A DNA stretch of 64,000 nt, taken from NCBI RefSeq assembly GCF_900119705.1, contig NZ_LT632322.1, forward strand, positions 1,178,001 to 1,242,000, read 5' to 3'. Shown here piece after piece: positions 11,444-38,220 of this stretch. Source of the DNA: Murdochiella vaginalis. GTDB lineage: Bacteria; Bacillota; Clostridia; Tissierellales; Peptoniphilaceae. The first letter of the stretch is position 1. Each line of letters starts with the position of its first letter. Made by a program: the position numbers and the translations under genes. The notes beneath the pieces were generated by a model. It was not told the DNA's origin. It did not search any database and saw only the letters and a program-made list of their open reading frames with translations.

Positions 11444-11479
11444 TAAAAAAAGAGCGAAGAGAAAGCTCTCTTCGCTCTT
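11444..11479 (-). terminator. Terminator after tsf
   Basis: A perfect 12-bp stem (AAGAGCGAAGAG at 11450-11461 with CTCTTCGCTCTT at 11468-11479) and six-base loop, followed on the minus strand by a run of T (11449-11444). It lies 12 bases after the tsf stop. Confidence 0.9.
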
Positions 11480-11490
11480 TCCTGTTTTTA

Positions 11491-20562: not shown

Positions 20563-21903
20563 TTACTGAAACGGATTTTTGAATAGGGAATTGAAGCGTT
20601 TTTTACCCTTCTTAAACTGTTCCATTTTCTTCATCAGCTTCTTGGAATCCTTAAATTGTTTAAGAAGGCGGTTCACCATGACCGGGTCATTGCCCGATCC
20701 TTTCGCGATGCGAGCACGGCGGGAATTCGAAATGATGTCCGGCTTGCGACGTTCCTCATCGGTCATAGAGGAAAGTATCGCTTCCAGACGTTTGATCTGC
20801 TTGTCATCAATGTTCACGCCGGCCATCTGTTTGGCATTCATGCCCGGGATGAGCTTGAGCAGATCCTCAAGCGGCCCCATGTTCTGCATCTGTCGGAGCT
20901 GTTCGCGAAAATCGTTCAGGTCGTATTTCTGAGAACGCATTTTCTCTTCCAGCTCTTTGGCTTTTTCCCGGTCCAGCGCCGATTCGGCTTTTTCGATGAG
21001 CGTGAGCACATCGCCCATGCCAAGAATACGGCTGACCAGGCGATCGGGATGAAACTCCTCAATCTGGTCAAGTTTTTCTCCCGTGCCGATCAGTTTAATC
21101 GGCTTATGGGTTACCGCGCGTACCGAAAGCGCTGCGCCTCCGCGCGCGTCACCGTCCAATTTGGAAAGCACCACACCGGTAATGTCCACGGCTTCGTTGA
21201 AAGTCTTGGCGACATTCACGGCCTCCTGACCGGTCATGGCGTCAACGACGAGCAGGGTTTCGGTAACGGGTACCGTCTCTTTGATGCGTTGCAATTCCCG
21301 CATGAGCTCATCGTCAATTTGTAAACGTCCGGCGGTATCTATGATCAGTGGATCATGCCCTGTTCGCACCGCTTCGTCATAGGCACGTTTTGCAATGTCC
21401 ACCGGATCGGCGTCCACTCCTAAGGAAAACACCGGCGTTTTCACCTGTTCTCCCACCACCTGCAGCTGTTTAATAGCTGCAGGACGGTAGACATCGCAAG
21501 CGACAAGCATGGGCCTGCGCTGTTTCTTCTGATACCAGTTGGCCAGCTTCGCTGCGTGGGTCGTTTTTCCCGAGCCCTGGAGACCGCACATCATGATGAC
21601 GGTCGGCGCTTTTGGCGCGCTGCGTAAAGCCATATCGTCATCGGACATCAAGGTGACCAGCTCTTCACGAACAATCTTGATCACCATCTGTCCGGGCGTC
21701 AAAGATTTCATTACGTTTTCGCCTACGGCACGCTCTTTAACCTGTGCCACAAACTCTTTCACGACTTTGTAGTTGACATCGGCTTCCAGAAGCGCCAGAC
21801 GAATTTCGCGCATCGCCTGATCCACGTCTTTTTGACCCAGCTTCCCTTTTCTCGTCAAGCGAGAAAACGTCGCTTGGAGGCGTTCGGCTAAATTGTCAAA
21901 CAT
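20563..21903 (-). CDS. ffh: Signal recognition particle protein Ffh (SRP54)
   Basis: GTPase and signal-sequence-binding protein of the SRP, acting with 4.5S RNA and FtsY in co-translational membrane targeting. N domain (1-90), G domain with GLQGSGKTTHAAKLA, DVYRPAAIKQL, DTAGR and TKLDGDARGG, then the methionine-rich M domain (about 300-446) with the RNA-binding stretch including SNSRRARIAKGSG. Length 446 aa is normal. GAGGAGGAGA precedes the ATG. The 4.5S RNA gene is not in this window. Confidence 0.97.
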   Translation of the reverse strand: MFDNLAERLQATFSRLTRKGKLGQKDVDQAMREIRLALLEADVNYKVVKEFVAQVKERAVGENVMKSLTPGQMVIKIVREELVTLMSDDDMALRSAPKAPTVIMMCGLQGSGKTTHAAKLANWYQKKQRRPMLVACDVYRPAAIKQLQVVGEQVKTPVFSLGVDADPVDIAKRAYDEAVRTGHDPLIIDTAGRLQIDDELMRELQRIKETVPVTETLLVVDAMTGQEAVNVAKTFNEAVDITGVVLSKLDGDARGGAALSVRAVTHKPIKLIGTGEKLDQIEEFHPDRLVSRILGMGDVLTLIEKAESALDREKAKELEEKMRSQKYDLNDFREQLRQMQNMGPLEDLLKLIPGMNAKQMAGVNIDDKQIKRLEAILSSMTDEERRKPDIISNSRRARIAKGSGNDPVMVNRLLKQFKDSKKLMKKMEQFKKGKKRFNSLFKNPFQ

Positions 21904-21948: not shown

Positions 21949-22326
21949 CTATGAAGTATGCGTTGGGTGGGCGTCCTTTGCATCGCGTGTACGCGAGAGC
22001 GAGGCCGACAGGCGCTGGAGCGCCCGACGGGCGGGAAGAGCTTTCTCTTCCGGTAAAGACTCCACGGCGTGTGCTAAAATGGGCAGCGTCTCTTTCGCGC
22101 ATTGTTCGGTCTCTAAGAGGCCAAGATGCGATTCAAAAAGAGTCATCTTTTCCACCGCCCGTGAAAGCTGTATGGATACTGCCTGTTTTGAAATTTTTCG
22201 CCATTCGGCAATTTCCGAAAGGGAAAGATCATCATAATAATAGGCTTCGCACAGCGCACGCTGCGTTTCGGTCAGCATGAAGCCGTAGACTTCATACAGC
22301 AGACCAATCTGTACCGTTTCTTCCAT
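21949..22326 (-). CDS. ylxM: YlxM family DNA-binding protein
   Basis: Small sigma-70 region-4-like helix-turn-helix protein (UPF0122) found beside ffh; in Streptococcus YlxM binds SRP components and modulates the pathway. Seen: LLYEVYGFMLTETQR, YYYDDLSLSEIAE and the helix-turn-helix ISKQAVSIQLSRAVEKM. 125 aa with the ATG at 22326 (GAGGA four bases upstream); an in-frame ATG ten codons earlier lies in the promoter palindrome and has no ribosome binding site. Confidence 0.88.
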   Translation of the reverse strand: MEETVQIGLLYEVYGFMLTETQRALCEAYYYDDLSLSEIAEWRKISKQAVSIQLSRAVEKMTLFESHLGLLETEQCAKETLPILAHAVESLPEEKALPARRALQRLSASLSRTRDAKDAHPTHTS

Positions 22327-22340
22327 GACATCCTCACTAA

Positions 22341-22371
22341 AATAGCACCGTTCCACCGGAACAGTGCTATT
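22341..22371. promoter_or_regulatory. Palindromic operator candidate at the ylxM promoter
   Basis: Two 14-base arms (22341-22354 and 22358-22371) around a 3-base centre, perfectly paired apart from one G-T mismatch. The palindrome begins in the last three bases of the -10 box and covers the expected transcription start (near 22362). Because the transcript would start inside one arm, a DNA site for a repressor is more likely than an RNA stem. Confidence 0.65.
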
Positions 22372-22397
22372 CTACGCATATTCAATGTGCCTGTCAA
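22369..22397 (-). promoter_or_regulatory. Sigma-A promoter of the ylxM-ffh operon
   Basis: Minus-strand consensus -35 TTGACA (22397-22392), 17-base spacer and -10 TAGAAT (22374-22369). It lies in the 162-base gap after ftsY and would drive ylxM-ffh-rpsP-khpA-rimM-trmD-rplS. A second inverted repeat, CTGTCAA/TTGACAG (22391-22397 and 22408-22414), also covers the -35. Confidence 0.88.
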
Positions 22398-22488
22398 GCT
22401 TTTTTGTTTGACAGAAAAAATTTCCGTTTCTTTTTTCAGCTGATTACTTTGATAGAAAAAAGCGCCGATTGTCCTTTTTGCGTTGGGC

Positions 22489-23406
22489 TCAGGAAAAAAT
22501 GGCATCCACAAAGGCTTCTGCATCGAAGGGGCGAAGGTCTTCCATCTGTTCGCCGACGCCGATAAATTTTACCGGCACCTTGACCTCGAGTTGCAAGGGA
22601 AAAACGACGCCACCTTTGGCCGTGCCATCCAATTTTGTAAGCACCAAACCGGTAATGTCCGTTACTTCGTTGAAAGCACGCGCCTGCTGAATCGCATTTT
22701 GCCCTGTTGTAGCGTCAAGAACGAGCAACGTTTCCAGGGTTGCCTGCTCGTATTCGCGGGAAAGAATACGATAGATTTTTTCCAATTCCTGCATCAGATT
22801 CTTCTTATTATGCAAACGTCCTGCTGTATCACAGATGAGCACATCCGTCCCACGCGCCTTCGCCGCATGAATGCCGTCATACACGACGGATGCTGGGTCA
22901 GCGCCTTCTTCTCTTCGCACTATGGCTACATCCGCCCGCCGAGACCATTCTTCCAGCTGATCAATGGCCGCCGCGCGAAACGTATCGGCCGCAGCAAGCA
23001 ACACGGATTTTCCCTGTCCTTTGAGATAGGCAGCCAGCTTACCGATGGTTGTCGTCTTTCCGACGCCATTTACGCCAATGACCAGAATCACCATCGGACG
23101 ACCAGCTTGTTCCTGCAGAGCCGTATGCAAATTGGAAGCTAACAGCTTTTCCTTCAAAATTTCCACGAGTCGAAGGCGCACTTGTTGCGGCTCGCGGATT
23201 CGTTCTTCCGCCACCACCTCGCGAAGCGTATCAATGACATCCATTGCGGTATCAAAGCCCATATCGGCAGAAACCAGTGCTTCTTCTATTTCCTCAAAGA
23301 GATCATCATCAATTGTCGCGCGTCCGTTAAACAAATTGTCCAACGCCCCGCCAAGGCTCTCTCTTGTCTTCTGCAGCCCCTGTTTTAAAAAGTCAAAAAG
23401 TCCCAT
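22489..23406 (-). CDS. ftsY: Signal recognition particle receptor FtsY
   Basis: SRP receptor GTPase at the inner membrane face. N domain followed by a G domain with VIGVNGVGKTTTIGKLA, AADTFRAAAIDQLEEW, CDTAGRLHNKKNLM and TKLDGTAKGG. At 305 aa it lacks the long acidic A domain of E. coli FtsY, as usual in Gram-positives. GGAGGAAAC precedes the ATG. It follows smc by 32 bases, the common rnc-smc-ftsY order. Confidence 0.96.
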   Translation of the reverse strand: MGLFDFLKQGLQKTRESLGGALDNLFNGRATIDDDLFEEIEEALVSADMGFDTAMDVIDTLREVVAEERIREPQQVRLRLVEILKEKLLASNLHTALQEQAGRPMVILVIGVNGVGKTTTIGKLAAYLKGQGKSVLLAAADTFRAAAIDQLEEWSRRADVAIVRREEGADPASVVYDGIHAAKARGTDVLICDTAGRLHNKKNLMQELEKIYRILSREYEQATLETLLVLDATTGQNAIQQARAFNEVTDITGLVLTKLDGTAKGGVVFPLQLEVKVPVKFIGVGEQMEDLRPFDAEAFVDAIFS

Positions 23407-38115: not shown

Positions 38116-38159
38116 CCACCCGATGTAAGCGGCTTCGATCCGGGTTAGCATTGCAATGA

Positions 38160-38193
38160 AAAGCCCCCTATGCTGTATTGCATAGGGGGCTTT
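38160..38193 (+). terminator. Terminator between rpmB and thiN
   Basis: A perfect 14-bp stem (38160-38173 with 38180-38193) around a six-base loop, GC-rich in the middle and with A/T ends on both sides. It lies between two convergent genes and can serve both rpmB (plus) and thiN (minus). Confidence 0.92.
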
Positions 38194-38220
38194 CTTGTAT
38201 CTTTGACGTCGGAGAAGGCT

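Follow-up and report, generated by a model that had tools for sequence, protein, structure and literature searches.

Genes and promoter elements at the locus

In the 64 kb stretch of DNA analysed here (the window), ylxM lies directly upstream of ffh on the same strand and is itself preceded by ftsY (Table 1). Scanning positions 22200–22700 for promoters yielded none besides TTGACA-17-TAGAAT on the minus strand, the consensus sigma-A promoter that the first-pass annotation of this DNA had placed there, and an Rfam search of the window gave zero matches. That annotation had also described two inverted repeats at the promoter; both of these, and the promoter itself, are confirmed. The first is a long palindrome that overlaps the -10 element. 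The one mismatch of its core is a G·U in RNA, and the arms can be extended from 14 to 17 bases, with 15 of the 17 positions paired. The second repeat covers the -35 element and corresponds to the site that we term O1, the only one in the window with at most one mismatch to the dyad pattern described below.

Table 1. Coordinates of the genes, promoter elements and inverted repeats around the ylxM promoter.
Feature	Position	Strand	Remarks
ftsY (SRP receptor)	22489..23406	-	upstream of ylxM; NCBIfam ftsY 364.7 bits, above cut-off
Second inverted repeat	22391..22397 and 22408..22414		CTGTCAA and TTGACAG
O1, candidate YlxM operator	22392..22413	-	TGTCAAACAAAAAAGCTTGACA; one mismatch to TGTNAAG-N8-CTTNACA
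-35 element TTGACA	22392..22397	-	doubles as right half-site of O1
-10 element TAGAAT	22369..22374	-	17 bases from -35 element TTGACA
Long palindrome	22338..22374	-	17-base arms; hairpin spanning -10 and start point; putative weak terminator for RNA running on from ftsY
Palindrome core	22341..22371		AATAGCACTGTTCC-GGT-GGAACGGTGCTATT; 31 bases, 14-base arms, one mismatch
Predicted +1 of the ylxM promoter	22362		G; within left arm of palindrome
ylxM	21949..22326	-	helix-turn-helix protein resembling sigma region 4; candidate reader of O1
ffh (SRP protein)	20563..21903	-	after ylxM in the operon; NCBIfam ffh 596.7 bits, above cut-off

A conserved dyad at ylxM promoters

Nearly all genomes sampled from the phylum (Firmicutes; 367 of 398) encode YlxM. 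The 252 loci used comprised 62 from relatives, 110 from the phylum and 80 from named Bacillaceae-type genomes. The relatives number 61, the genome of the window among them, and one of these contributed two loci. The 110 phylum loci were drawn from among the best-scoring of the 366 genomes that passed the cut-off, and so are skewed to high scores rather than random; the Bacillaceae-type loci are the best 80 of 578.

With up to two mismatches allowed, the dyad TGTNAAG-N7/8-CTTNACA was found at the ylxM promoter in 233 of the 252 loci, in either or both of two positions. At O1 (115 sites), the right half of the dyad is the -35 hexamer itself. The other position, O2 (206 sites), mostly starts 5–7 bases past the -10 element, at the start point. 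Both are present in 88 loci, where their centres are most often 51.5 bp apart. Neither O1 nor O2 as defined was present in the remaining 19 loci, several of which carry a variant or displaced dyad. Counted within 200 bp at the same stringency, the dyad occurred in 107/110 phylum, 80/80 Bacillaceae and 52/62 relative loci; the controls gave 2.2% of 7000 Markov-shuffled regions and 21 of 2068 other windows of the same loci.

A frequent form of the dyad in the window's family is GTCAA-N9/10-TTGAC. The core GTNAA-N9/10-TTNAC lay within 130 bp upstream of ylxM in 61 of the 62 relative loci, compared with 3 of 752 control windows. Genome-wide, the shorter GTCAA-N9/10-TTGAC pattern was uninformative, with about four matches per genome against about three for the control. 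A search for O2 within the window's genus found none; most other genera have it.

Copies of the dyad outside the ylxM promoter

The exact dyad pattern occurred 91 times in 60 phylum genomes, compared with 25 occurrences of the reversed pattern. In the 51 genomes for which positions were fully listed there were 75 exact sites: 45, from 39 genomes, no more than 200 bp upstream of ylxM, seven at ffh-rpsP and 23 scattered at about the frequency expected by chance. Confinement to one operon in this way is as expected for a local autoregulator.

The copy between ffh and rpsP (O3), at the gene junction or rpsP promoter, was present in 65 of 79 Bacillaceae loci, a count that leaves out one of the 80 as too short and in which some misses may be truncated loci. 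In L062, the right half of O3, TTTACA, stands as a -35 element 17 bases before TAATAT. A transcription start, P2, has been placed just upstream of rpsP in B. subtilis (PMC10100781). The window's own ffh-rpsP junction has no O3-type site.

Two exact O1-like dyads were seen at other translation-related genes. One, TGTCAACAAAAAAGCTTGACA, lies at approximately 441–461 of L254 (G009:C8:44840-44860), upstream of an rnpA-like gene and perhaps at the rpmH promoter. The other, TGTCAACAAAAAAACTTGACA, lies some 15 kb from ylxM, at approximately 415–435 of L255 (G053:C77:118214-118234), and precedes a yceD-like gene. Both are single cases and were treated as chance.

The long palindrome

Comparison of the ftsY-ylxM gap among relatives, which the first-pass annotation had set beforehand as a test, separated the two repeats. 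O1 is kept in all five members of the genus, whereas the palindrome is present in four (G000, G002, G003 and G004) and absent from the fifth, G001 (L006). The latter is the most distant congener, and its ylxM match was reported with an internal TAA.

Across the four genomes the left arm of the palindrome is invariant. The right arm varies (GGAACGG, GGAGCGG, GGAATGG), with all variants keeping the pairing as G·U. Of the three species folded, two have a 3-nt loop and one a 4-nt loop. The full hairpin folds beyond chance (-23.5 kcal/mol, z -7.2). T-runs come after the palindrome, that of the window being short, and in a looser terminator scan it was the sole terminator-like hairpin of the gap in each of the four genomes. 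The looser scan gave one extra match, in L002, within ftsY. A stringent terminator scan found no terminator at the palindrome. The G·U argument, drawn from three distinct sequences, is weak by itself. However, the G·U-type arm changes, the varying loop, the T-runs and the lack of any other terminator-like hairpin in the gap together make an RNA hairpin in ftsY read-through likelier than an operator, and we lean slightly towards the view that it acts as a weak terminator of such read-through.

Transcripts from the ylxM promoter itself would not carry the full stem, because the predicted start lies in the left arm, as the first-pass annotation had recognised. An RNA begun at this position folds at chance level (-7.9 kcal/mol, z 0.01). 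Having started inside the arm, it would escape the hairpin.

The first-pass annotation had instead read the palindrome as a protein operator, of YlxM or of another regulator, which we now regard as unlikely. It is admittedly a long, near-perfect dyad across the -10 element and start point, the position at which other genera carry O2, with a left arm identical in four genomes. Moreover, O2 is extended to comparable long palindromes in several related genera: in L015, L030, L230, L234, L240 and L256 it is lengthened by 6–10 pairs toward or into the -10 element, and lengthening by at least four pairs was seen in 12 of 206 O2 sites (shuffled mean 1.2, maximum 6). Nevertheless, the palindrome is unlike the YlxM half-site, which O1 matches in the same genomes, and the scan of the genome that the first-pass annotation had asked for, allowing up to three mismatches, gave no second copy. 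Its loss from one congener, the unlike dyad of other genera, the loop that varies in length and the asymmetric changes of the right arm, all of the G·U type, likewise speak against conservation as an operator. The proposal of a DNA operator at this promoter holds, but the conserved element is the repeat over the -35 (in other genera, the start-point dyad) rather than the palindrome.

Dyads with 15-base arms, at most two mismatches and a loop of 0–6 bases occur at only four places in the window; this rarity and its uniqueness in the genome mark the palindrome as no chance feature. The other three (28–63, 11447–11482 and 38159–38194) have A- and T-tracts and look like intrinsic terminators. The CIRCE element, TTAGCACTC-N9-GAGTGCTAA, was also considered as an identity for the palindrome, with HrcA as its reader, and was rejected, the palindrome not being among the CIRCE matches at up to three mismatches. 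Three CIRCE-like elements lie elsewhere in the window genome (G000:C1:1486504, 1496400 and 1345780; L257–L259) and are presumably HrcA targets.

YlxM and its recognition helix

The YlxM protein of the window, at 125 amino acids, matches Pfam UPF0122 (PF04297) with 64.3 bits (cut-off 22.7) and falls just below the cut-off of 80 for the NCBIfam equivalog YlxM, with 72.4 bits. Its description as a helix-turn-helix protein is borne out by a match to Sigma70_r4 (PF04545; 29.2 bits, cut-off 24.1) and by a sigma-region-4-like fold; no sigma region 2 family appeared among matches up to E 1. The structural model (pLDDT 90) aligns with sigmaA region 4 on -35 DNA (1ku7) with Z 9.1 and rmsd 1.9 over 66 residues, and places the beginning of the recognition helix at residue 47.

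This helix covaries with the operator. In 12 covariation tests with operator bases, each ranking 75 columns, residue 47 came first in 11 and residue 51 was among the top five in every one. Among representatives below 60% identity, a C in both half-sites accompanied 26 of 27 K47 proteins and 12 of 80 R47 proteins. Within the R47 proteins, the right half of O2 tends toward TTTACA with H51 and toward TTAACA with Y51. In 34 matched Y51/H51 pairs, which are not strictly independent, the counts were 18 versus 3 and 16 versus 2 in the overall direction (sign tests 0.0015 and 0.0013). The K47/R47 split falls largely in one clade, and a tree-based independent-pair test, which was underpowered, gave one or two supported pairs and was not significant. 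With too few independent changes in the tree-based test, the covariation is strong evidence that YlxM is the reader, but not proof.

Proposed autoregulation by YlxM

The dyad stands at YlxM's own promoter, is conserved across taxa and is confined to the protein's own operon, as sought in an autorepressor. We therefore consider it probable that the promoter of the ylxM-ffh-rpsP operon is negatively autoregulated, with YlxM repressing its own operon through paired half-sites that resemble the -35 element. Autoregulation had been raised as a possibility in the first-pass annotation, and comparison now gives it good support: the presence and placement of the dyad, its nearly exclusive occurrence at this operon, the fold and the helix covariation all point in this direction. 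YlxM would bind the dyad, probably as a dimer formed on the DNA, with half-sites CTTGACA, CTTTACA or CTTAACA, and binding would lead to repression. At O1, bound YlxM would exclude sigma-A because the right half of the site is the -35 element; competition for the -35 may likewise take place at O3. At O2 the protein would sit on the start point and block the start.

YlxM of S. mutans binds Ffh and SRP RNA (PMC8546722), which makes titration of YlxM by the SRP a natural guess for the signal. By extension, YlxM could have a double duty throughout the phylum, as an SRP subunit and, when free of Ffh and SRP RNA, as a protein that shuts the SRP-ribosome operon by occupying the -35 with its sigma-4 domain; we offer this broader reading only tentatively. 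If true, YlxM would shut P1, together with P2 ahead of rpsP in Bacillaceae, and protein-targeting capacity would be coupled to ribosome synthesis. The operator itself points to a single feedback loop for the SRP operon, one that in Bacillaceae would also take in rpsP and the genes that follow it.

In the literature searched (open-licence PMC papers; print may hold more), we found no YlxM operator, no YlxM autoregulation and no statement on the role of its DNA-binding domain, to which a conserved operator on the ylxM promoter would give a direct, testable function. The remark in the first-pass annotation that operator control of an SRP/ribosome operon is not known from B. subtilis fits this literature, but species of the B. 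subtilis group (L062–L065) have three copies of the operator: a pair at the ylxM promoter and a third at that of rpsP.

It is improbable that a different regulator, such as GlnR or TnrA, reads the dyad in place of YlxM. The GlnR/TnrA consensus is TGTNA-N7-TNACA, and the half-site letters are the same. The spacer, however, is 11–12 bases in the YlxM dyad (12 between TGTCA and TGACA in O1) rather than seven, and the restriction of the dyad to one operon, with exact copies elsewhere at chance level, fits poorly with a regulator that has a regulon. The covariation of operator bases with the YlxM recognition helix also argues against such a reader. Other regulators with TGTNA/TNACA half-sites were set aside on spacing and exclusivity.

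We think it very unlikely that the dyad is a mere feature of strong promoters, an A-tract beside TTGACA with no repressor involved. The spacer of O1 is A-rich, and the single O1-like sites upstream of the rnpA-like and yceD-like genes could be read in the same way. Yet O2 overlies the start point and plays no part in the promoter, exact copies outside the operon occur at the frequency of the control, and the helix covariation has no place in this explanation. We give still less credence to an RNA stem or leader element at the 5' end of the mRNA: O2 does lie within the first ~22 transcribed bases, and complementary letters at its position 4 slightly exceed expectation (65 seen, 48 expected), but O1 and O3 have this motif ahead of their start points, and the two letters at position 4 fail to pair in 89 of 154 distinct O2 sites, which indicates that the dyad works as DNA.

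Comparison with known systems

One of the closest known systems is sigma-70 region 4 on the -35 element (1ku7, 2h27, 6jhe). YlxM shares its fold and recognition helix, and the half-sites TTGACA and TTTACA are -35-like. It differs from a sigma-70 factor in being without region 2, in having its half-sites in a palindromic pair and in being proposed as a repressor rather than an initiation factor. The plasmid repressors KorA and ArdK (5clv, 7bcb), small helix-turn-helix proteins with structures solved on operator or inverted-repeat DNA, resemble YlxM to some degree, but they are plasmid regulators with different operators and the likeness is weak (Foldseek E ~0.5 or more; ArdK Z 8.6).

Within the YlxM/UPF0122 family, the window protein shares the position upstream of ffh and the fold of solved structures (1xsv, Z 13.3; 1s7o, Z 12.7). 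YlxM has been studied in Streptococcus, and streptococcus-like genomes, unlike the window, are without the operator. Williams et al., in 2014, reportedly found nothing to suggest that YlxM regulates transcription in S. mutans, a result that the missing site could explain. Among Lactobacillales, the operator was missing in 28 of the 30 loci examined, out of 60. Although it is mostly missing in that order, the recognition helix is unchanged in streptococcus-like YlxM, suggesting that the protein has a job independent of the operator. The protein of one operator-less member of the Lactobacillales, L032, closely resembles the S. pyogenes structure 1s7o.
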